Source of the DNA: Planctomycetota bacterium
GTDB taxonomy: Bacteria; Planctomycetota; Planctomycetia; Gemmatales; Gemmataceae
Assembly: GCA_016873095.1 (NCBI GenBank)
Contig: VGYC01000060.1
Location: forward strand, 1 to 36,789
Reading direction: 5' to 3'
Length of the DNA stretch: 36,789 nucleotides
Shown here: one piece after another, positions 16,153 through 30,555 of the stretch
Numbering within the stretch: position 1 is the stretch's first letter
How the letters are laid out: each line of letters opens with the position of its first letter
Position numbers and translations under genes: made by a program
The notes under the pieces: generated by a model
Databases searched by the model: none
Told to the model about the DNA's origin: nothing
Seen by the model: only the letters and a program-made list of their open reading frames with translations

Positions 16153-17010
16153 TCATTTGGCTACGACCGGCAACTGTTGCAGGGTCTTGCGCTCGTCCTT
16201 GCGGCCGAAGATCTTGCGCCAGAGCCACATGACCGGGTCGTAGAACTCGTCGACGACGCGTTCCTTGAGCGGGATGATGCCGTTGTCGGTGATCTTGATG
16301 TGTTCCGGGCAGACCTCGGTGCAGCACTTGGTGATGTTGCACAGGCCGATGTTGAGCTTGTCCTTGAGCAGCGGCAGGCGATCGTCGGTGTCGAGCGGAT
16401 GCATCTCCAGGCTGGCGACGCGGATCATGAAGCGCGGGCCGCCGAAGGTTTCGGGCGGTGCTTCGGTTTCTGCTCCGGGCGCTGTTCCTGTCGCTGTTCC
16501 GGCCGCTGCCGCTTCCGGGTCGCCGAGCATGTGGTGGTCGCGGAGGATGTGGCAGACATCCTGGCACAGGAAGCACTCGATGCACTTGCGGAACTCCTGG
16601 ACGCGATCGACCTCTTCCTGGGCCATCCGCCAGGTGCCGTCGGCCTCCGGCGGCTTCGGCCTGAAGGGCGGAATCATCTTGTTGATCTTGTAATTCCAGG
16701 AGACGTCGGTCACCAGGTCCTTGATGAGCGGGAAGGTCTTGACCGGCTGGATGGTGACGGGCTGATCGATGGGGATGGTCTCCATGCGGGTCATGCACAT
16801 GAGGCGCGGCTTGCCGTTGATCTCCGCCGAGCAGGAACCGCACTTGCCTGCCTTGCAGTTCCAGCGGCAGGCGAGGTCCGGCGCCTGCGTCGCCTGGATC
16901 TGATGAATGGCGTCGAGGACGACCATGCCCTCGCTGATGTCGGCGGAGTAGTCCTTGAACTCGCCGCCGCTCCTGTCGCCGCGATAAACCTTGAACGTCG
17001 CCTGTGGCAT
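16153..17010 (-). CDS. sdhB: succinate dehydrogenase/fumarate reductase iron-sulfur subunit
   Basis: A 285-residue subunit that passes electrons from the flavoprotein to the membrane quinone site. The 2Fe-2S ligands are C52, C57, C60 and C72 (CKAGKCGSC). The ferredoxin domain carries CIECFLCQDVC (C143, C146, C149, C153) and CNITKCCTEVCPEH (C224, C230, C234), for the 4Fe-4S and 3Fe-4S clusters. An Ala/Thr/Gly/Glu-rich insert lies at about 165-190. ATG 17010 follows AAGGA. The gene is separated from sdhA by about 7 kb and sits 20 nt behind the MazF-type toxin gene, so its transcription may now depend on the toxin-antitoxin operon or the old promoter upstream. Its first 18 codons are duplicated at 17612-17666. 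Confidence 0.92.
   Translation of the reverse strand: MPQATFKVYRGDRSGGEFKDYSADISEGMVVLDAIHQIQATQAPDLACRWNCKAGKCGSCSAEINGKPRLMCMTRMETIPIDQPVTIQPVKTFPLIKDLVTDVSWNYKINKMIPPFRPKPPEADGTWRMAQEEVDRVQEFRKCIECFLCQDVCHILRDHHMLGDPEAAAAGTATGTAPGAETEAPPETFGGPRFMIRVASLEMHPLDTDDRLPLLKDKLNIGLCNITKCCTEVCPEHIKITDNGIIPLKERVVDEFYDPVMWLWRKIFGRKDERKTLQQLPVVAK
16956..17010 (-). repeat. 55-bp direct repeat, copy at the start of intact sdhB
   Basis: The first 18 codons of sdhB plus one base match 17612-17666 at 54 of 55 positions. The two copies flank the MazF-type toxin-antitoxin pair in the same orientation. Confidence 0.92.
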
Positions 17011-17030
17011 GGGTGTCCTTCGTTTTCGAC

Positions 17031-17375
17031 CTAAGGGATTGTGGGCAGCTGAAACAGCGCTATCACTTGCGAAAGTATGCGGGCCAAAGTCGTTGGGGTC
17101 AGGGTTCCGACGCAACGCACCATCAGTCCTGCGTGAGCCGTGAACAATTTGCCTGGCCGAGAGAAGCTAGGGACTAATAGTCCACCGGAGGCGAAATCAG
17201 GCGCATCGAGCGCCACTGCGTTCACGTCGCCGTAGGGACTACTGGTAATCTGACAGAGTATCCAATCGCCTCGACCGACGTCAGCAAGACACACTGCCGG
17301 TCGAACCTTGGTCTGCGACAAGTCGGAGAAAGGAAATGGCACCAAGATTACGTCTCCGGCTGCAGGTGTGACCAC
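17031..17375 (-). CDS. MazF/PemK-type toxin
   Basis: A 114-residue protein with the PemK/MazF pattern of an mRNA-cutting endoribonuclease toxin. The start, AGDVILVPFPFSDLSQTKVR, is followed by PAVCLADVGRGDWILCQITS, which holds the conserved beta strands, the R-P-A-V core and the I-T-S strand. It has GTG at 17375 with GAGGA six bases before it and overlaps the antitoxin gene by 28 nt, the usual arrangement for such pairs. The gene ends 20 nt upstream of sdhB. The core residues look intact, so it is probably active. Confidence 0.85.
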   Translation of the reverse strand: MVTPAAGDVILVPFPFSDLSQTKVRPAVCLADVGRGDWILCQITSSPYGDVNAVALDAPDFASGGLLVPSFSRPGKLFTAHAGLMVRCVGTLTPTTLARILSQVIALFQLPTIP

Positions 17376-17566
17376 GCGGCATCCTCCTCGGGCCGGAGCC
17401 AGTCAACCGCAAGTGCCGCCTCTGCCAAAAGCGCGGCTTCTCCCGGCACCGCGGCGGGTTCTTCGAGCACGGTTACCAGTGCGCGGCGCGGGCCAGCAAG
17501 CCTCACCTGTCCCAGCAGTCGAACTCGTCCTGACGCATCGACAATGGCTTCAACTGTTTGGATCAT
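17348..17566 (-). CDS. antitoxin partner of the MazF-type toxin
   Basis: A 72-residue protein that begins MIQTVEAIVDASGRVRLLGQ and continues VRLAGPRRALVTVLEE: short beta strands like small AbrB/MazE-like antitoxins. An acidic, Ala-rich tail (LLAEAALAVDWLRPEEDAAW) would wrap the toxin. ATG 17566 follows a perfect AGGAGG. That Shine-Dalgarno overlaps the stop codon of the sdhB stub just upstream, so initiation may be coupled to translation of the stub. Antitoxins of this kind usually repress their own operon. Confidence 0.7.
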   Translation of the reverse strand: MIQTVEAIVDASGRVRLLGQVRLAGPRRALVTVLEEPAAVPGEAALLAEAALAVDWLRPEEDAAWSHLQPET

Positions 17567-17576
17567 TTGTCGCCTC

Positions 17577-17666
17577 CTAGCCTATTCTACCTCGACCTGA
17601 ATGATCCCTTGTGAACTCGCCGCCGCTCTTGTCGCCGCGATAAACCTTGAACGTCGCCTGTGGCAT
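17577..17666 (-). pseudogene. sdhB 5' stub (first 18 codons), now a 29-codon leader frame
   Basis: The frame begins MPQATFKVYRGDKSGGEF, identical to SdhB except Lys for Arg at residue 13. It then runs into unrelated sequence and stops at 17577. It keeps its own ATG with a GGGATGG Shine-Dalgarno-like stretch. Its TAG overlaps the antitoxin's AGGAGG, and only 10 nt separate stop from the antitoxin ATG. It looks like the original start of sdhB, cut off when the toxin-antitoxin cassette arrived. Confidence 0.85.
17612..17666 (-). repeat. 55-bp direct repeat, copy in the sdhB stub
   Basis: Partner of 16956-17010, one mismatch in 55 bases. With that copy it encloses the antitoxin and toxin genes. 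Confidence 0.92.
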
Positions 17667-17960: not shown

Positions 17961-18038
17961 GGGTTGAAGCGGCCAAGGGACCCGCGTGGGTGTGTAAAAC
18001 TCGTAAGCGCAGCGCAATCGAAGATGCCGCACCCAGGG
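17961..18038 (+). repeat. dispersed noncoding repeat, copy 1
   Basis: 78 nt match the reverse complement of 30477-30555 at all but nine positions plus one single-base gap. GGGTGTG near the middle can pair with CGCACCC near the 3' end (7 bp with one G-U) in both copies. Eight of the nine substitutions would change the amino acid in the open frame, so a protein-coding role is unlikely. Confidence 0.75.
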
Positions 18039-18141
18039 AAACGGAGAAGCAACGCTGGAATAATGTAACTCTTGGCCGTGTAGTCGGTTACGTGGTTGGC
18101 TGCCATTTGGGAGGATTTGCCGAGGGGGTATATGCCACTTT

Positions 18142-18175
18142 CTGGACGAATCCTGGACGAATCTTCTGGACGGAT
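18142..18175 (+). repeat. 11-bp tandem repeat
   Basis: CTGGACGAATC occurs twice in a row (18142-18163), followed after two bases by a partial third copy, CTGGACGGAT. Confidence 0.7.
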
Positions 18176-18267
18176 GCCGCCGTTACCTGCGGTTGACCCA
18201 GGCCGCCCGCGGAATCTGATCGCTTTCGCTGATAGCCCGGAAAACGACGAGAACGGAGGAGCAAGCC

Positions 18268-21200
18268 ATGAAACACCGCCGAATCAAGCTGGTGATGACG
18301 ATGCTGGTCTGGACGTGGGCGTCGGCGGGCGTCGGCGGGGCGGTCGATATCGTCCAGATCCTGTCGCGCGAGGATCCGGCGTTTCGCGCCGAGACGGCCC
18401 GGCTCGCCGTCGGCCGGGATGGCATGATCTACCTTATCAGCGGCGGCAACGACAGCTACGTTCTCCGTCTTGGCCACGACGGCAAGGGCAAGTTTGGCGG
18501 CAAGGTGGTCTACGCCGCCAACAGTGCGACTGCCAACTCGGCCGGCGTTGTCGCCACCGCCAACGCGCACTTCGCCCACAAGGTGCAACTCTACGATCTT
18601 GCGTTGCAGCAGTTCGGCGAGTCTGCCGAGTTCCTGGTCAACGACCAGGTGGGCTGGGATGCGCCGGCGCACGTGGAGGCCGGCGTCAGCGGCGATTTCT
18701 ACGCCATCGACCAGCACCGCGACCGCATCCTGAGAATCAATGCGACCGGGAAGCTCCTGCGCGCGATCGCTGTTCCCCGCGAGCCGGCCGGTGGCCCGGG
18801 GCAGATGCAGGACTTCCGCGTTTGCGAGAAGACCGAGGCGATCATGCTGCTGCGCCGCGGCGGACCGCTCACGTGCATCGGCTTCGACGGCAAGAAGCGC
18901 TGGCAGGTGAACGCCGGCGTCAACTGGGGCGAGAACGTCAACACCGGGGGCTTCGACGTCGACGACGCGGGCAACCTGTACGCCATCGGCCGGCACGATC
19001 ACGTCATCAAGAAGTTCGATGCGCATGGCAAGCCGTTCGGCCAGATCGATCTGCAAACAGGCACGTTGAAGCCGGCGTCTGCGGAGCACGGCTGGAGCGA
19101 CCTGCGGCTGCGCGGCGGCGAGGTGTTGCTGAAACGCAAGCATCCGACCGAACTGTTTCAGCGCTACGACCTGGCCAGCGGCAAGCTCATCCAGGTCGTG
19201 TCCACGATTCACGAGTATCTCGCCATGACGTTTCCGGAACGTGTGTGGACGGCGGGAAAGAAGATTCCGTTCAGCGTGACGCTGCAAGGCCGGCCGGCGA
19301 AGGGGCAGCCGCGCTGGCGGGTCTGGGCCCGGCCGGTCGGCGGCATCGGCTATCGTGAGTTCTCGGTCACGGACGGCAAGCTGACGGTCCCCGACGATTG
19401 CGCCGGCATCTACCAGATCAAGGTGACACCGGAGATCCAGCCGATGCAGCGTGGCCAGCGCTCCGAGTATGGCGTGCGCACCTGGGTGGACCTCCGCCGG
19501 GACGGCGCCAAGGGCACGGCCACCGTGTGGACGGAAGACAACCGCAATCACTCCGGCCGCGGCGAGGAGATTCGCCTGCACGTGCAGGCTCGGACCGGCA
19601 AGGCGGCCCAGCCTGTCGCCGCCGTCGTTCGCCTGTTGCATGGCAAACGCGCCATCCTGGAAGAGAAGGTCACGCTCACCGTCAAGCCGCTGTCCATGAA
19701 GGTGTCCGCGCAACTGTCGGCAGCGCTGGCGCCGGGGCGGTACACCATCGCGGTCGATGCTGCCGACATGACCTGCGTGGGACAGGAAATCGAGATCGGT
19801 CCCGGCGTCCACAAGCAGGCGTTGCATCGCATCCAGTACGGTGATTACGGCCCGACCTATCCGGCCGCCGATCTCTGGGAGGCGCCCGACCTGGCGGCGG
19901 CGCACGTCGAGCGCACGCGCAAGCTCGGCATGAACCTCATGGTCGATCGGCTGGGCGATCCGAACCAGGGCGGCGCCTTCTTGCCGGATGGCGCCTCGCG
20001 CGGCGACATGGAGGAGATCGTCAAGCATCTCGAAAAGGATCCACTGGCGCCTGCGCCCCAACGGTATCAACCGGTGGCCACGCTGCGGCAAGTGCTGTCC
20101 GGCTACAGCGCGGCCGGCATCGAGCAGATGAGCATCCTGATGATGAATGACGCCGGGCTGCCGCTGGGTACCGGCTTCGATCCGCGCAAGCCGCCGCAAC
20201 TCCTCGAGACCATCGAGCGCGTCACCGAAGCAGCCAGGCCGTATCCGGCGTTTCGCGGCTGGAGCTGGGCGTCCAACTGGTGGATTTTCGACAAGCGCGG
20301 CGCCAACGGCGCACGCACTGCCGCTGAGAAAGCCGCCTACGAGACGGCCTGGAAGGAGGCCAGAAAGTCCGGCGCGTGGGACCCGGTGCTGGATGCTGTT
20401 TCGAGCCATCGCTTCTCATTCGCCGTCGAGGCCCAGGAGCTTTTCAACAAGAAGCTGCGTGTCACGGCGCCGAAGCTGGTTACGGCGTCGGCGTGTCCGC
20501 ATCGCAACGTGGAATCGTATCCGCCGGTGACGTTCAGCAACGTGGACGAGGTGGACCTGCAAGCCCAGTGGGAGCAGATCGGCATGCCGTTGCACGTGCC
20601 GCACGGCGTGGACTTTTACCGCCGCCCCGGCAAGCGCGCCTGGACGCACCCGGAAATCTGGAACGATTCGGGGACGGGCGGTCAGGTGCTGCCGACGCTG
20701 TTTCAGGCGCTCATGCGCGGGGCCGACGGCGTCGGCTGCTCCGGGCCCATTCCACCCTGGACCAGCGGCGGCACGCTGCCGGACGATCCGCGCGGCGGAC
20801 ACTACGGAACGACCTCGGTCTTTCGTGCCTTCAACGACGTGGCCCGCCGCTACGGTCCCTGGCTGGCGACGCTGCGCAACAACGACAAGGTCGCCATCGT
20901 CGTCTCCGGGCGGCAGTTGCGGATCGACGACTGGCCCATCGTCATGGGCACGCACTTCGCCCGGCTCTTCGAGGCGTATGCCGCCTGCCTGCATGCACAT
21001 CATCCGGCGAGCTACGTCTTCGTGGAGGATCTGAAGCCCGGCTTGTTGAAAAGGTACAAGGCCGTGCTCGTGGTCGGCCAGACGGTGGCGATGGAGCCTG
21101 AGCTGCGCGAAGCGCTCGTCGCTGCCAGGAAGCATGGCGTGGCGATCCTGCATGATGGGACATGCCGGCCGGAGCTGGTGAAGGACTTTCAGCCGCTCGG

Positions 21201-24147
21201 CGTGTCGTTCAACCAGTTCGAGAAGGACCCGTCGCCGGCCGCCGATGACGCCGCCTATCTGCGCTTCCCTGCGTATTGCCTGGCCCACGTCGCGCAGATG
21301 AAAAAGGCGCTCGACCCCGTCGTGGGCCCGACGGCAACGACGGATAACCCGGAAGTGTTCATCTCTGAGCGCACGAACGGCGCTGCCCGTTTTCTGTTCG
21401 TGGTCAACAACACGACGCCGGCGCTGGAGCCGGGGCACCTGTGGCGCATCACGCTGGCCGTGGCCAACCGCGTCCCGGTGATCGCCAAGGTCAAGCTGCC
21501 AAAGCACGACGGCGTGATCTACGACGTCTTCGCCGGCAACCGGATCGAGCCGCGCGACGGCGTGATCGATGCCGACCTGCGCTCGCTGCCATGCAGAATC
21601 TACGCTCTGCTGCCGGCGGCAATTGATGGCGTCGATCTAACGGCCCCGAAGGCAGTCAGCGCGGGACAGCCACTGTCCTGGAGCGTGCATCTGCGAAGTG
21701 ACGCAGATTCGCTCGGGACCGCATTGCCGCAACGCATCCGCTTGCTCGACAGCAACGGCAAGGTGTTGCGTGAGTCCTTCACGACAGCAACCGGCGAATG
21801 GAGCAAGGACAGCTTGACTATACCAATCGGGACGCCAGCGGGCGACCTTATCCTGGAAGCAACGGAGTTGGTCAGTGGCCAGCGTGCGCGGCTCACTGTC
21901 GAGGTTACTGCCGTCAACTTGCCGTTCACGTTTGCGACTCGGTTTCTGGGTGATCCGCGAGTTCAGAAGACTTCTGATGCCGTCACACGCTCGCAATCGA
22001 ATATCGCCGCGGATGACCGCTTCGGTTCACACTTGCGCGATGTGGTCATCACCGACCACGGCAGGACGGCCGTGATGAACGCGATGAACTGGGACCACAA
22101 TCTCCATGCCGTGGATGTCGCCACCGGCAAGCTGCGCTGGCGACAGCGGGCGGGGCAGTACTTCGCCTTCGCGCCACAGGCGCTGCCTGGTGGCTTCGCC
22201 GTAAAGGGCTTTGATTTTCAGTCGGCCGAGGGCTATCACCTGTATCTCGGCAACGCCGCTGGCAAGCTGGAGCGTCGCTTCGCGCTGTACGGCCTGCCGC
22301 GCCGACAGATACAGCGGTTCATCCCCGGCATGTTCATGGAACGGATCAACAACTTCGCCGTCGCGCCCGATGGCTCCTGGATCGCCGCGGCGGGCGACCT
22401 GGGATTGGCTGTCTGGTCGCGCGACGGCAAACGGCTTTGGTCGGAGGACTGGTGGAAGACGCGGCGGCACACGGCCACGCTGGCCGCGCTCGACACCAGG
22501 ACAGTGCTCGCCGTCGATGACACGACCGCCAGCGCGCGTGATGCAGTCACCGGCAAGCAACTCTGGCAGGTGAGGCTTGCCGCCACGGGCGAGGCCCGCG
22601 ACATCCGCGTCAGCATGGACGGCAAGACCTGCGCGCTCTACGCCACGACCGAAGGAGGCCGGGTCTTTGTCCTCCGCGATGGCAAGGTTGCAGCGACCAT
22701 CCCGACGGCGGCCAACGGCATCGACCTGTCGGCGGATGGCAGGCTGATTGCCGTGGTCGACCGCAATCATCTCAAGCTTTACTCGGTGACCGACGGCCTG
22801 CAATGGCTGCTCCAGGGGGACGATACGCTGCACCAGCCGCGCATTTCTCCGGACGGCAAGCGCGTCGCCGTCGGCAGTGCGCTCGGGACCGTCTACGTCG
22901 TCGCCGTCGATGGGACGATTCTGCTGGATCGCGACATGAAAGCCCTCAGCGTTCCAGCCTGGCTTCCGGACGGCGACCTGCTGCTGGCCGGCTGGATGGG
23001 CACGGTGTGCCGGCTGGACGGCAAGTACGCGGAGAAATGGCGTACGCACCTGCAACCGGCAGAGATCGACATGCGCGGCAAGCTACTCGCCGCCGAGACC
23101 GTGCCGACGACGCGCATCGCCTCATGGGGCAATGCCGAGGCGAAGCCGTGGCCGCTCGCGCCGAACCTGCTCGGCCCCAAGGATACATACATCCGTTTCC
23201 AGTCGGCGATGGGGCACATGCACTTCGTGCATCCGGTCGCCGAGCTGGTGGACGGCAAGCCGACGCCGCCGAAGACGCCGTGGCTGCACTGGCACGATGT
23301 CGGTCACGCCGCCGAGATCTCGCCGATCAACTCGATCGTGCTGGACACGTTTCGCACGCAGTTGCGGGTGACGGCCGTCACGCTGGTCGAGGATCGCGCC
23401 CATCCGGAATCGTGGCTGCGCGACGTCGCGCTCGAAACCTGGGACCCGACCAGGGAACAATGGCGTCCCGTGCAGACGCTGCTCAGCGACGCTGCCGTGC
23501 ACACGCACAAGCTGGCCAGCCCGATCGAGGCGTCGCGCTTCCGGCTGGTGTTGCCGCGCGGCATGTGCGGCAACATCCGCCTGGGCGAGATCGTCTTTCA
23601 CGGTGACAAGATCGGCCCAAACCATCCGGACGTGATCGCCAAGCGCCCGGTCGCCGTGCTCTTTGACGAGGGGGACGAGCTGAAAAGCGCGCTGGTGTCT
23701 CAGCAGTTGAGCTTCAAGTTCGCCGGCGCGTTCTCCGGCGGGCGTTATCTCGCGCTTGCAAAGGACGCCCAGGTGTATCCGCCGTTCTTGCCCCCCTTCG
23801 GTCATGCGCTGCCAGGCTGGGACTTTGAGATCGCGGAGAAGCCTGGGCCAGGGCAGTACCGCTACCTGGAGTTTGCGTGGAAGGCCGGTTCCCCGGACAC
23901 GAAGGGAATCACGCTGCAGATCGGCTCGATGGTGTATGGCCAGCAGGTGGGCATTCACTGCGGCGCTTACAAGAAGACGGACGGCGTCAAGCCGCTCAAG
24001 GCGGCGGCCGTCCCGCCGTCCGACTGGCAAACCGTGCGCGTCGATCTCTGGGACGTGTTTCGCCGCGACTTCCGGGTGCAGGCGATGACGCTATTGACCC
24101 AGGGAGGCGAAGCGGCTCTGGACCGGATCGTGCTCAAACGCGAGTGA
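18268..24147 (+). CDS. giant exported multidomain protein: propeller, glycosidase-like barrel, PQQ-like propeller, discoidin-like end
   Basis: A 1959-residue protein with a signal peptide (TMLVWTWASAGVGGAV) and a good GGAGG before ATG 18268. Order of parts by sequence feel: a six-bladed NHL-like propeller (about 30-330); Ig-like segments (330-510); a TIM-barrel-like region with HVERTRKLGMNLMVDRLGD and FRGWSWASNWW (510-860); a Rossmann-like segment (870-1030, AVLVVGQTVAMEPELREALV) as in the middle domain of GH42 enzymes; Ig-like (1120-1215); a PQQ-like propeller (1220-1600, VDVATGKLRWRQRAGQYF); a discoidin-like region (1640-1790); and a final beta-sandwich. It may bind or cut an extracellular polysaccharide, but catalytic residues were not assigned. 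It opposes the split sdh genes, ending 15 bp from the sdhA stop. Confidence 0.8.
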   Translation: MKHRRIKLVMTMLVWTWASAGVGGAVDIVQILSREDPAFRAETARLAVGRDGMIYLISGGNDSYVLRLGHDGKGKFGGKVVYAANSATANSAGVVATANAHFAHKVQLYDLALQQFGESAEFLVNDQVGWDAPAHVEAGVSGDFYAIDQHRDRILRINATGKLLRAIAVPREPAGGPGQMQDFRVCEKTEAIMLLRRGGPLTCIGFDGKKRWQVNAGVNWGENVNTGGFDVDDAGNLYAIGRHDHVIKKFDAHGKPFGQIDLQTGTLKPASAEHGWSDLRLRGGEVLLKRKHPTELFQRYDLASGKLIQVVSTIHEYLAMTFPERVWTAGKKIPFSVTLQGRPAKGQPRWRVWARPVGGIGYREFSVTDGKLTVPDDCAGIYQIKVTPEIQPMQRGQRSEYGVRTWVDLRRDGAKGTATVWTEDNRNHSGRGEEIRLHVQARTGKAAQPVAAVVRLLHGKRAILEEKVTLTVKPLSMKVSAQLSAALAPGRYTIAVDAADMTCVGQEIEIGPGVHKQALHRIQYGDYGPTYPAADLWEAPDLAAAHVERTRKLGMNLMVDRLGDPNQGGAFLPDGASRGDMEEIVKHLEKDPLAPAPQRYQPVATLRQVLSGYSAAGIEQMSILMMNDAGLPLGTGFDPRKPPQLLETIERVTEAARPYPAFRGWSWASNWWIFDKRGANGARTAAEKAAYETAWKEARKSGAWDPVLDAVSSHRFSFAVEAQELFNKKLRVTAPKLVTASACPHRNVESYPPVTFSNVDEVDLQAQWEQIGMPLHVPHGVDFYRRPGKRAWTHPEIWNDSGTGGQVLPTLFQALMRGADGVGCSGPIPPWTSGGTLPDDPRGGHYGTTSVFRAFNDVARRYGPWLATLRNNDKVAIVVSGRQLRIDDWPIVMGTHFARLFEAYAACLHAHHPASYVFVEDLKPGLLKRYKAVLVVGQTVAMEPELREALVAARKHGVAILHDGTCRPELVKDFQPLGVSFNQFEKDPSPAADDAAYLRFPAYCLAHVAQMKKALDPVVGPTATTDNPEVFISERTNGAARFLFVVNNTTPALEPGHLWRITLAVANRVPVIAKVKLPKHDGVIYDVFAGNRIEPRDGVIDADLRSLPCRIYALLPAAIDGVDLTAPKAVSAGQPLSWSVHLRSDADSLGTALPQRIRLLDSNGKVLRESFTTATGEWSKDSLTIPIGTPAGDLILEATELVSGQRARLTVEVTAVNLPFTFATRFLGDPRVQKTSDAVTRSQSNIAADDRFGSHLRDVVITDHGRTAVMNAMNWDHNLHAVDVATGKLRWRQRAGQYFAFAPQALPGGFAVKGFDFQSAEGYHLYLGNAAGKLERRFALYGLPRRQIQRFIPGMFMERINNFAVAPDGSWIAAAGDLGLAVWSRDGKRLWSEDWWKTRRHTATLAALDTRTVLAVDDTTASARDAVTGKQLWQVRLAATGEARDIRVSMDGKTCALYATTEGGRVFVLRDGKVAATIPTAANGIDLSADGRLIAVVDRNHLKLYSVTDGLQWLLQGDDTLHQPRISPDGKRVAVGSALGTVYVVAVDGTILLDRDMKALSVPAWLPDGDLLLAGWMGTVCRLDGKYAEKWRTHLQPAEIDMRGKLLAAETVPTTRIASWGNAEAKPWPLAPNLLGPKDTYIRFQSAMGHMHFVHPVAELVDGKPTPPKTPWLHWHDVGHAAEISPINSIVLDTFRTQLRVTAVTLVEDRAHPESWLRDVALETWDPTREQWRPVQTLLSDAAVHTHKLASPIEASRFRLVLPRGMCGNIRLGEIVFHGDKIGPNHPDVIAKRPVAVLFDEGDELKSALVSQQLSFKFAGAFSGGRYLALAKDAQVYPPFLPPFGHALPGWDFEIAEKPGPGQYRYLEFAWKAGSPDTKGITLQIGSMVYGQQVGIHCGAYKKTDGVKPLKAAAVPPSDWQTVRVDLWDVFRRDFRVQAMTLLTQGGEAALDRIVLKRE

Positions 24148-24162
24148 TGGGCCTGCGGAATC

Positions 24163-26025
24163 CTACTTCTGGTCCTCGATCACCTGCTTCAGATAGTCCG
24201 GCATCTCCGGCAACGGCTCCCAGCGGAACTGCATGGTGCCGTCGCCGGCCTGGGAGATGATGGTGTTCTTCTTGCCGTACTCGGCGTCGTTCTTGGCGGG
24301 GAAGTCGTCGCGGAACTGGGCGCCGCGGCTTTCCTTGCGCTCGATGGCGGCCTTGGCAATCGCCTCGGACACCGTCATGAGGTTGAGAAGGTCCATGCAG
24401 GTGTGCCAGCCGGGGTTGTACTCGCGGTTGCCGACGGCCTTCACGCGGCGGGCCCGGTCCTTCAGCTTTTCAATTTCGCCAAGCGCCTTTTGCATCTCGG
24501 CCTCGACGCGGACGATGCCGACCAGGTCCTGCATGATCTCCTGCAAGTCCTGCTGAACCTTGTACGGATTCTCGTCGCCGGCCGGCTGGTCCATGAAGCT
24601 GAGCGCCCAGCGGGCGGCCGCCTCGATCTGATCGTTGTGGATCTGTCCGGCGGATTTCTCCTTCGCGTAGCGCGCGGCATATTCGCCGGCGCGCTTGCCG
24701 AGGACGAGCAGGTCGGAGAGCGAGTTGCCGCCGAGGCGATTGGCGCCGTTGATGCCCGCCGCGCATTCGCCGCAGGCGAACAGCCCCGGCACGCGCGACA
24801 TCTGCGAGTCGGCGTCCACGCGGATGCCGCCCATGACGTAGTGCGTCGTCGGGCCGACTTCCATCGGCTCCTTGGTGATGTCGATGCCGCCCAGTTCCTT
24901 GAACTGGTGATACATGCTCGGCAGCTTCTTCTTGATGTGCTCGACGGGGTTGGTGATGCGCTCCTTGCACCAGGCCGGGTCCTTGAAGTCCTTGAATGCG
25001 TCCGAGTGCGTGAGCCAGGAAACGTCGAGGAAGACGCCGCCGTGCGGGCTGCCCCGGCCCTCGCGAACCTCGCGGCGGATGCAGCGGGCCACGTGATCGC
25101 GCGTCAAGAGCTCTGCGGGGCGGTTGCAATTCTTGTCGCCCAGGCAGTAGCGCATCCCTTCTTCGGGGTTCTTGGCGGTCTGGTTCTTGTAGTTGTCCGG
25201 GATGTCGCCGTACATGAAGCGCTCACCCTTGCTATTGGTGAGGATGCCGCCCTCGCCGCGAACGCCTTCGGTGACCAGGATGCCGCGAACGCTGGGCGGC
25301 CAGACCATGCCGGTTGGATGAAACTGCACGAACTCCATGTCGAGCAGCTCGGCGCCGGCACGGTAGGCGAGCGAATGGCCGTCGCCGGTGTATTCCCAGC
25401 TGTTGCTGGTGATCTTGAAAGCCTTGCCGACGCCGCCGGTGGCCAGCACGATGGCCTTTGCGCGAAACAGGACAAAGCGGCCCTTCTCCCGGTAGTAGCC
25501 GAAGGCGCCGGCGATGCGGTCGCCGTCCTTCAAGAGCGCGATGATCGTGCACTCCATGTAGACGCTCATGCCCTGGTGGATGCCGTGGTCCTGCAAGGTG
25601 CGGATCATCTCCAGGCCGGTACGGTCGCCGACGTGGGCGAGCCGTGGATAGCGATGCCCGCCGAAGTTGCGCTGCAAGATGCGGCCGTCGCGGGTGCGGT
25701 CGAAGACGGCGCCCCATGCTTCCAGCTCACGGACGCGGTCCGGCGCCTCCTTGGCGTGCAGTTCGGCCATGCGCCAGTTGTTGACGTACTGCCCGCCGCG
25801 CATGGTGTCGGCGAAGTGCACCTTCCAGCTATCGCGTTCATCGACGTTGGCGAGCGCGGCGGCGATGCCCCCCTCGGCCATCACGGTGTGCGCCTTGCCC
25901 AGCAGCGATTTGCAGACCAGCCCCACGGACACGCCGCCGGCCGACGCCTCGATGGCGGCACGCAGTCCCGCGCCGCCGGCGCCGATCACCAGCACGTCGT
26001 GTTCGTGGGTTTCATAAGAGTCCAT
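24163..26025 (-). CDS. sdhA: succinate dehydrogenase/fumarate reductase flavoprotein subunit
   Basis: A 620-residue FAD enzyme that oxidises succinate to fumarate. Landmarks: VLVIGAGGAGLRAA (Rossmann GxGxxG, 15-20); KAHTVMAEGGIAAA, with H46 as the expected covalent FAD-binding His; EFVQFHPTGM; GVRGEGGILTNSKGERFM; CIRREVREGRG with the catalytic Arg region; TTHYVMGGIRVD; and NRLGGNSLSDLLVLGKRAG. AGAGGAA precedes ATG 26025. It follows the lipoprotein gene by 14 nt, so sdhC, the lipoprotein and sdhA form an operon. The iron-sulfur subunit gene is not next, unlike the usual order. Its stop lies 15 nt from the stop of the opposing 1959-residue gene. Confidence 0.95.
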   Translation of the reverse strand: MDSYETHEHDVLVIGAGGAGLRAAIEASAGGVSVGLVCKSLLGKAHTVMAEGGIAAALANVDERDSWKVHFADTMRGGQYVNNWRMAELHAKEAPDRVRELEAWGAVFDRTRDGRILQRNFGGHRYPRLAHVGDRTGLEMIRTLQDHGIHQGMSVYMECTIIALLKDGDRIAGAFGYYREKGRFVLFRAKAIVLATGGVGKAFKITSNSWEYTGDGHSLAYRAGAELLDMEFVQFHPTGMVWPPSVRGILVTEGVRGEGGILTNSKGERFMYGDIPDNYKNQTAKNPEEGMRYCLGDKNCNRPAELLTRDHVARCIRREVREGRGSPHGGVFLDVSWLTHSDAFKDFKDPAWCKERITNPVEHIKKKLPSMYHQFKELGGIDITKEPMEVGPTTHYVMGGIRVDADSQMSRVPGLFACGECAAGINGANRLGGNSLSDLLVLGKRAGEYAARYAKEKSAGQIHNDQIEAAARWALSFMDQPAGDENPYKVQQDLQEIMQDLVGIVRVEAEMQKALGEIEKLKDRARRVKAVGNREYNPGWHTCMDLLNLMTVSEAIAKAAIERKESRGAQFRDDFPAKNDAEYGKKNTIISQAGDGTMQFRWEPLPEMPDYLKQVIEDQK

Positions 26026-26039
26026 GTCGTTCCTCTGTG

Positions 26040-26390
26040 TCAGCCTTTCGGCATCGTTATGCCCATCTTGGACCCAATGCGCGACATGCGCGTCTTGGCC
26101 TGCTCGATCTCCGCCTTGAACTTGTGTTCAAGGGCGTTCTGAGTGCTGTTCGGTAGCGCCCTGATCTTCGTTGTCAGCGCTTCGATGTCGGCCCCCACCT
26201 TCTTGATCTTGGCTTCACTGTCTTTCACTGTCTCGATATCCGGCTTCTTCACCATGTTTTCCATCTCGTCCGCCATCTGATTCATGAGCTGCACTAATTG
26301 CTTGCCCAGATGATCGTGAGCGGTAGTGTCCGTCGAGCAACCAACGGCCAGGCAACTCACCGGTAACAGCACACCGAGCAGCGTTCTCAT
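26040..26390 (-). CDS. small lipoprotein within the sdh operon
   Basis: A 116-residue protein with a lipoprotein leader (MRTLLGVLLPVSCLAVGCST); C18 is the predicted lipidated residue, with Ala at -3 as a mild departure from the usual lipobox. The mature part is amphipathic and rich in Lys, Glu and Met (QLMNQMADEMENMVKKPDIE, then AKIKKVGADIEALTTKIRAL), so it is probably a helical coiled-coil. ATG 26390 is chosen because AGGAG lies six bases before it; ATG 26396 abuts the same sequence. It lies between sdhC (12 nt) and sdhA (14 nt) but has no known role in the enzyme. Confidence 0.75.
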   Translation of the reverse strand: MRTLLGVLLPVSCLAVGCSTDTTAHDHLGKQLVQLMNQMADEMENMVKKPDIETVKDSEAKIKKVGADIEALTTKIRALPNSTQNALEHKFKAEIEQAKTRMSRIGSKMGITMPKG

Positions 26391-26402
26391 GGTCATCTCC
26401 TG

Positions 26403-27314
26403 TTACAGGATCCGCAAGTCGGTCCAGATGCCGAGCGCGCACATGCGGATGTATACGTCCGTGAAGCCGACACTGAACAACGACAGCCAGGCCCATTGCA
26501 TGTGATTCTCGTTAAAGAGCGTGCTGAAGCGCCAGAGTTTGTAGCTCGGCCGCAGCTTGGCGATGTTGTTTGGGCAGCTGAAGCAGTCAAGGCGACCGCC
26601 AACCAGATGACGGAACGAATTACAGCCGAAGGTGAAGCCGGCCAGCAGGCAGACGTTCGCGACCATGATGAGCGTGCCCAGGCCGATGCCGAGTTGATGG
26701 CCGCCGTCCAGGAAGTTGCCAGCGCGATCGGTCGGCCACCAGAATGCCTTGAGCGCGTCCCAGCCCAGAATGACCAGGAACAGGACCGCGAAGTACATGA
26801 AATAGCGATGCGAGTTTTGCAGGATCAACGGCCAGCGGTTCTCGCCCCAGTAACTCTTGCGCGGCTCGCCGACGGCGCAGGCGGGCGGGTCAGCCCACAT
26901 GGCGCGATAATACGCCTTGCGATAGTAGTAACAGGTGAAGCGGAAAAGGCCCGGAAATGCCAGGATCAGAAAGGCCGCCGAGAATGGGAACCAGCCGGGC
27001 AGCCAGCTGGGCCGCAGGTCGCCCTTGATAATGGCGTGATGGCTCTGCGGATCGTAAATGAGCGGCGAGTAGAACGGTGACAAGTACGGGGCTGCTTCCT
27101 GAGTGCCTTTCCAATCGACCTTGCCGGCGACATTCTTGCGAATCTCGAAATGGCTGCTCTGCCACGCTGCCCAGGTGCCGTAAATCAGAAACGCCGATAA
27201 GCCGATGGCCGTGAACGCCGGTCCGACCCACCAGGCGTCCCGCCGCGCCGTGACGCCGAAGCCGTCCTGCGATTGCCGCCCGCCTGTCTGGTCCAGTGTG
27301 CCTGCCTGTGACAT
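26403..27314 (-). CDS. sdhC: succinate dehydrogenase membrane anchor, actinobacterial Sdh1-like
   Basis: A 303-residue membrane protein with about five transmembrane helices, including AFTAIGLSAFLIYGTWAAWQ, FSAAFLILAFPGLF, MYFAVLFLVILGWDAL, GIGLGTLIMVANVCLLAGF and WAWLSLFSVGFTDVYI. The segments APYLSPFYSPL, RFTCYYYRKAYYRAMWADPP and WPLILQNSHRYFMYFAVLF strongly resemble the anchor of actinobacterial-type succinate dehydrogenases. His residues in SHRYF and GGHQLG and near FNENH could ligate heme. It is first in the operon ahead of the lipoprotein and sdhA; CAAGGCAGG precedes ATG 27314. Confidence 0.8.
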   Translation of the reverse strand: MSQAGTLDQTGGRQSQDGFGVTARRDAWWVGPAFTAIGLSAFLIYGTWAAWQSSHFEIRKNVAGKVDWKGTQEAAPYLSPFYSPLIYDPQSHHAIIKGDLRPSWLPGWFPFSAAFLILAFPGLFRFTCYYYRKAYYRAMWADPPACAVGEPRKSYWGENRWPLILQNSHRYFMYFAVLFLVILGWDALKAFWWPTDRAGNFLDGGHQLGIGLGTLIMVANVCLLAGFTFGCNSFRHLVGGRLDCFSCPNNIAKLRPSYKLWRFSTLFNENHMQWAWLSLFSVGFTDVYIRMCALGIWTDLRIL

Positions 27315-30376: not shown

Positions 30377-30476
30377 CCCGCCAGGTCGCGGAACTTGCCA
30401 AGAGTTCCAGCAATCGACACGTTTGTAGGGGGCGCCTTCTGCACGGCACTTGCGTCAAACCGTAAGTTTTCAATTG

Positions 30477-30555
30477 CCCTGGGTGCGACATTTTGGATTG
30501 CGTTGCGCTTACGCGTTTCACACACCCACGTGCGTCCCTTGACCGCGTTCAACCC
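30477..30555 (-). repeat. dispersed noncoding repeat, copy 2 (inverted)
   Basis: 79 nt in the spacer between the convergent hydrolase-like and WD40 genes; the reverse complement matches 17961-18038. The same 7-bp GGGTGTG/CGCACCC pairing can form. An overlapping open frame on the minus strand is not thought to be a gene. Confidence 0.75.

Follow-up and report, generated by a model that had tools for sequence, protein, structure and literature searches.

How does a two-gene toxin-antitoxin (TA) cassette come to lie at the start of a core gene and leave that gene whole? TAs are among the most mobile of bacterial genes, and a module of just two genes carries no enzyme for its own mobility. In this study, we analysed a contig of 36,789 nucleotides from a Planctomycetota bacterium of the family Gemmataceae (this whole stretch is called the window), in which a TA cassette lies at the 5' end of sdhB. 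The original prediction placed the TA genes between two direct copies of the first 18 codons of sdhB. The upstream copy was described as a 29-codon ATG stub whose stop overlaps the antitoxin Shine-Dalgarno, and the downstream copy as the opening of the intact sdhB, 20 nt past the toxin stop. The coordinates agree with both descriptions, and the repeat alignment (54 of 55 bp) confirms the two direct copies. On the minus strand, read 5' to 3', the order is intergenic DNA, stub ORF, antitoxin, toxin and intact sdhB. The features are as follows.

16153-17010, minus strand: intact sdhB, succinate dehydrogenase/fumarate reductase iron-sulfur subunit, 285 aa (NF009052)
16956-17010, minus strand: repeat copy 2, the first 18 codons of the intact sdhB (repeat alignment)
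17011-17030, minus strand: spacer of 20 nt from toxin stop to sdhB ATG, with a Shine-Dalgarno-like GAAGGA (sequence)
17031-17375, minus strand: PemK/MazF-like toxin, 114 aa, GTG start (PF02452)
17348-17566, minus strand: antitoxin, 72 aa (its homologues precede homologous toxins)
17573-17611, minus strand: TA leader with a -10-like TAGAAT (17584-17589) and AGGAGG (17573-17578) (sequence)
17577-17666, minus strand: 29-codon stub with ATG start, 18 sdhB codons followed by read-through into the TA leader (ORF list)
17612-17666, minus strand: repeat copy 1, the sdhB start within the stub (repeat alignment)

The two copies of the 55-bp direct repeat have a start-to-start spacing of 656 and a longest exact match of 37 bp. 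The single mismatch is an AAG codon in the stub copy, compared with AGG in the intact sdhB. A 22-bp probe from the repeat, searched with up to 3 mismatches, matched two places only, and 100 dinucleotide shuffles gave no match. This shuffle test excludes a chance origin of the repeat. The genome holds the repeat at these two places only, so it derives from sdhB and is no unrelated repeat element. The repeat boundary lies exactly at the ATG, and upstream of the two ATGs only a Shine-Dalgarno-like CGAAGG is common to both; a repeat continuing further upstream was considered and rejected, the match there being merely Shine-Dalgarno-like.

The TAG stop of the stub (17577-17579) overlaps the AGGAGG that precedes the antitoxin ATG. 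Since the codons after the first 18 run into the TAGAAT/AGGAGG leader, the leader that belongs to the cassette accounts for the tail of the stub. The likeness of this tail to the continuation of sdhB (RDHS/KDYS) was not significant (p about 0.11). An evolved leader peptide is an unnecessary reading of the stub, since its tail is the TA leader in frame. The insert between the repeat copies is 601 bp long and contains TA genes only; no integrase, recombinase or relic of one, and no terminal inverted repeats, were found in it or at its ends. The window gave no Rfam match and no tRNA, and PADLOC gave no match. It follows from the sequence, as had been proposed, that recombination between the two repeat copies would excise the cassette precisely, with a single intact start remaining.

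The toxin scored 23.5 bits against Pfam PemK_toxin PF02452 (cut-off 23.1, residues 6-107) and had no match in NCBIfam. Its homologues are 40-64% identical to it, and the PFPFSDL and RP motifs are invariant among them. The AlphaFold model from the single sequence had a mean pLDDT of 43, too poor for a fold search. A weak PDB sequence match was obtained (7bye_B, E 0.02), and a profile search gave none. By its sequence, the toxin appears to be a distant member of the PemK/MazF family, barely above the cut-off. It shares with the PF02452 PemK/MazF type II toxins the sequence family, the gene order and the overlap with an upstream antitoxin gene (28 nt here). However, it is distant from them, and its antitoxin matches no Pfam family. 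Homologues of the antitoxin, 56-80% identical, lie upstream of homologous toxins. In genome G121 (contig C8, loci L121 and L151), a homologous toxin gene is broken by a MITE-like insertion, an element of ~100 bp whose ends are inverted (GTAACTTCTCAATAA/TTATTGAGAAGTTAC) and which has CTGGTGG as an apparent target repeat.

One claim of the original prediction did not hold, namely that the TA pair came under the old sdhB promoter. We reject it because sdhB was the third gene of an ancestral operon, whose order in the relatives is sdhC-sdhA-sdhB. The DNA upstream of the stub is now intergenic and is shared with a divergent gene, and the leader has its TAGAAT box. In genome G121, the arrangement GGTAGAAT...GGAGG...ATGAT likewise precedes the homologous antitoxin gene. 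With a -10-like box in common with the G121 homologue, the cassette is likely to have a promoter of its own.

SdhB scored 415 bits against the NCBIfam equivalog NF009052 (cut-off 256) and, along its length, shares 69.5% identity with the nearest family relative. Its stretch rich in Ala, Gly, Thr, Pro and Glu (residues ~165-190, window 16450-16520) is the point at which matches to most relatives break. The genomic context given earlier needs correction, in that sdhA is on the same contig and is not adjacent to sdhB. The features upstream of the stub are as follows.

17961-18179, no strand assigned: dispersed repeat of ~215 bp, one copy of which lies upstream of the stub (more than 40 matches in its own genome)
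18268-24147, plus strand: 1959-aa ORF with PQQ/beta-propeller signals, between sdhA and the stub (ORF list, profile search)
24163-26025, minus strand: sdhA (79% identical to the protein of relative G011)
26403-27314, minus strand: sdhC-like membrane subunit (identified by where it lies and by its resemblance to the gene preceding sdhA in relatives)

The distance between sdhA and sdhB is 7.15 kb, occupied by the TA cassette, a 5.9-kb opposite-strand gene and ~0.6 kb of non-coding DNA. The junction took up more than one insertion in the lineage of the window, since it holds the cassette, the 5.9-kb gene and a stretch with the dispersed 215-bp repeat. The 1959-aa ORF, on the strand opposite to sdhA and sdhB, lies 15 nt from the sdhA stop. 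Full copies of the dispersed repeat are 84-91% identical, many partial copies of either end occur (one at window 30474-30555), and the repeat has no Rfam match. Between sdhC and sdhA, a 118-aa small lipoprotein-like ORF (window 26040-26396) weakly resembles Lpp; the sdhC-like subunit gave no Pfam hit.

We compared the locus with relatives. Among 27 family members with this SdhB type, the gap between sdhA and sdhB was -1 to 184 nt in 24 and 440, 748 and 1590 nt in the remaining three. The 1590-nt junction (L159, genome G017) holds two related ORFs that read, unscored, like Uma2; the 748-nt junction (L166, genome G003) holds two short ORFs. Relatives with an uninterrupted junction and no cassette had been named as the thing to look for, and the 24 family members are such relatives. 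At 92 other sdhB loci, no second copy of the sdhB start was found within 6 kb upstream, with less DNA covered where contigs end. None of the relatives compared had a TA beside sdhB or a larger element bounded by sdhB starts. The window genome is the sole member of its genus in the comparison, and the empty site is reconstructed from relatives at about 59-70% SdhB identity. Given the missing second copies and the close sdhA and sdhB in 24 of the 27, the cassette was gained at the sdhB start relative to the family, with sdhB kept whole by duplication. This sustains the claim that the cassette entered there and that the reading frame survived. Since the repeat copies are close to identical, the insertion is recent relative to the SdhB divergence of these relatives. 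More generally, insertions seem to recur at the sdhA-sdhB junction.

Bracketed TA loci were then surveyed across Planctomycetota. The survey covered loci with related PemK toxins (65 toxins) and an independent set of 40 ParE toxins; most of the genomes are draft MAGs, and many loci are on MAG contigs. A bracket was defined as a direct repeat of at least 35 bp and 85% identity, with a spacing of 0.4-4 kb, flanking the toxin. Random positions in the same loci served as controls, and the matched genes were Uma2 and SdhB only. Brackets were found around 13 of the 65 PemK toxins, compared with 2.2-2.9% of control positions, and around 8 of the 40 ParE toxins, compared with 1.7%. When the limits were tightened to 45 bp, 88% and 2.5 kb, the counts were 11/65 and 6/40 versus 1.3% and 0.7% of controls. 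The bracketed fraction was highest at the toxin (20.6%) and dropped to about 0-7% at distances of 2-6 kb in both directions. None of 2000 permutations reached the observed count. When five repeat-rich genomes and the window were removed, 7 of 87 toxins were bracketed against 1.4 expected (0 of 5000 permutations). Within 1.5-kb flanks, brackets were present in 10/82 loci of three TA families, 1/29 of Uma2 and 0/40 of SdhB (TA versus controls, Fisher p 0.012). The window's own genome, G000, has 28 Uma2 matches. These results demonstrate that bracketing repeats around TAs are enriched phylum-wide in Planctomycetota. A search for other TA cassettes bounded by duplicated gene starts had been proposed, and across the phylum several TAs do lie between copied gene ends; most of these are 3' ends, and sdhB is a 5' end. 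The brackets at individual loci are as follows.

L198: htpG 3' end, the last 137 bp up to the stop codon; gene-end duplication
L246: last 18 codons of an rpmH-like gene, 58 bp; gene-end duplication
L230: end of a gene of no known identity, 165 bp; gene-end duplication
L312: URO-D-like gene end, 109 bp, spacing 731; gene-end duplication
L311: amine-oxidase/desaturase-like gene end, 48 bp, spacing 751; gene-end duplication
L375: metH end, 92 bp; gene-end duplication
L197: region around a restriction-methylase gene end; gene-end duplication
L318, 5728-8293: ppdK 3' end three times, around two different TA-like pairs; array at one gene end
L149, L212, L226, L229, L289 and L293: non-coding dispersed repeats or palindromic (MITE/REP-like) elements; brackets that are not gene ends
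L154, 7400-8800 (G000, contig C126): PemK pair with a GH15 gene on one side and, on the other, a decayed piece from the interior of that gene
L377: PIN gene between 55-bp non-coding repeats

The duplications range from 48 to 413 bp, length and target gene differ from case to case, and the repeat copies at loci other than sdhB differ by 2-13%. The rpmH-like gene of L246 scored 19.6 bits against Pfam L34, under the cut-off of 25. The array at L318 reads ppdK with its terminator, a first TA-like pair, a second ppdK end with terminator, a ParE pair, and a third, decayed ppdK end; we take the first pair, unscored, to be DUF433/DUF5615-like. At L311, the cassette is absent in 13 relatives, in several of which the next gene directly follows. 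Both copies at L311 carry a codon change that is not present in the relatives shown, so this duplication arose within the lineage. L154 and L377 are two further bracketed TAs in the window's own genome. As a gene-end case, L154 was rejected, its second copy being an internal decayed fragment, and it was counted as bracketed only. The non-coding and palindromic brackets may have other causes.

We consider it reasonably probable that a type II TA cassette was inserted at the sdhB 5' end with a long (55 bp) target duplication, and that the same process acts across Planctomycetota. The long direct duplication is present, and the target is single where the cassette is absent. The cassette, consisting of toxin, antitoxin and their own leader, would have inserted at the sdhB 5' end and duplicated 55 bp of target. 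The duplication would span the start codon and 18 codons, leaving the upstream copy as the stub and the other as the opening of the intact sdhB. The cassette has neither a transposase or integrase nor inverted repeats at its ends, so the insertion would most likely be the work of the host's own repair or recombination systems on TA DNA entering the cell. The TA may then persist, as loss by repeat crossover would leave stable toxin without antitoxin. The same process could operate elsewhere in the phylum, where TAs of three toxin families lie beside copied core-gene ends. We infer that one insertion process causes the enrichment, that it follows a repair route and that addiction accounts for retention. 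A broader formulation is more tentative, with somewhat less than an even chance of being right: type II TAs of Planctomycetota may be minimal recombinase-free mobile elements that duplicate a long stretch of target on entering core-gene ends, build up step by step at preferred ends such as ppdK, and are kept by a toxin that punishes repeat crossover.

Known mobile elements and integration by homology have to be weighed against this reading. A DNA transposon was rejected, as the ends have no inverted repeats, no transposase is present and a 55-bp duplication is not short. An integrase-type island fits poorly, with TA genes only in the insert and no second sdhB start in relatives. Thus, given the lack of a recombinase and terminal repeats and the varying duplication length and target, an ordinary transposon is excluded and a site-specific island is unlikely. 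The direct repeat alone, on the other hand, fits target duplication and integration by homology alike, and recombinase-free homologous integration is a serious rival, even if we hold it to be rather unlikely. In a Campbell-type event, circular or joined DNA carrying the TA and a fragment of a related cell's sdhB start would enter by one crossover at the chromosomal sdhB start, and gene ends would be portable homology for RecA excision and re-entry. The product would be identical, the lone mismatch in 55 would be a donor allele, and both the 2-13% difference between copies at other loci and the accretion of different TAs at the ppdK end would suit a homology target. However, 55 or 48 bp is near the minimum for RecA exchange, the lineage-specific codon shared by the L311 copies would require a very close donor, and a free circle or donor junction was not found.

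Three further explanations have lower standing. The layout might have been left by an integrase-borne element that used the sdhB start as its attachment site and lost all but its addiction module. Att sites classically show this arrangement, in which a duplicated gene end restores the gene, and a chromosomal island at the mutL 5' end has been described (PMC4129442). We regard this as improbable, however, as the 601-bp insert has no integrase or recombinase relic, the duplication lengths (48-413 bp) and target genes vary, and in none of the relatives do sdhB starts enclose a larger element. Alternatively, a segment in which a TA already lay beside sdhB might have been duplicated in tandem and one of the two TAs then lost. 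This would account for the enrichment with no insertion mechanism, addiction protecting unstable duplications; short tandem duplications are indeed visible nearby and beside metH in L375. Two exact events would be required, the relatives have no TA beside sdhB, and the DNA before the two ATGs is unrelated apart from the Shine-Dalgarno. Protection by addiction also fails to explain the single-step layout at sdhB, and we give this account a slightly smaller chance still. A chimeric join at a k-mer-sized repeat is suggested by the length of 55, a common assembler k-mer size, and by the resemblance of the window to a MAG contig (548 contigs). Such an artefact is highly improbable, as the copies differ inside the block, with exact matching only up to 37 bp, the DNA between them is a complete TA with both genes open, and the contig's sdhA (79%) and sdhB both match the same relative well.

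Insertion with a long target duplication, our preferred reading, has a parallel in restriction-modification systems. Such insertions were reportedly described by Nobusato in 2000 and Furuta in 2010. Restriction-modification systems insert with long, variable target duplications of about 100 bp (PMC3874152, a review; PMC3031569). They resemble the present case in being addiction-type cassettes with no mobility gene of their own and with a long, variable direct target duplication; here, by contrast, the cassette is a type II TA, and the 48-413 bp duplications are often at core-gene ends. In Microcystis aeruginosa PCC 7806, a ParDE-like TA beside MaOC1 lies between identical 152-bp direct repeats (PMC7935541). 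It is likewise fenced by direct repeats beside a gene, but those repeats lie 14 bp past the gene stop, and the paper presents them neither as copied gene ends nor as a target duplication (PMC7935541). Chromosomal islands at the mutL 5' end share with the sdhB cassette their insertion at a gene 5' end, whereas they are phage-like (PMC4129442), and the present case lacks both an integrase and the repeated use of a single att site. In our literature search, which was weak on subscription papers, long target duplications around type II TAs were nowhere described.

The fixation of horizontally acquired TAs has been described as not yet understood (PMC2654758). The layout found at sdhB is far commoner than chance in the phylum, which points to movement of TAs without a known mobility enzyme. 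The excess of TAs between duplicated gene ends is a signature open to counting, to dating from the divergence of the repeats and to laboratory tests. The sdhB locus shows how a core gene can withstand an insertion, and insertion with long target duplication would link TAs and restriction-modification systems through one way of moving.
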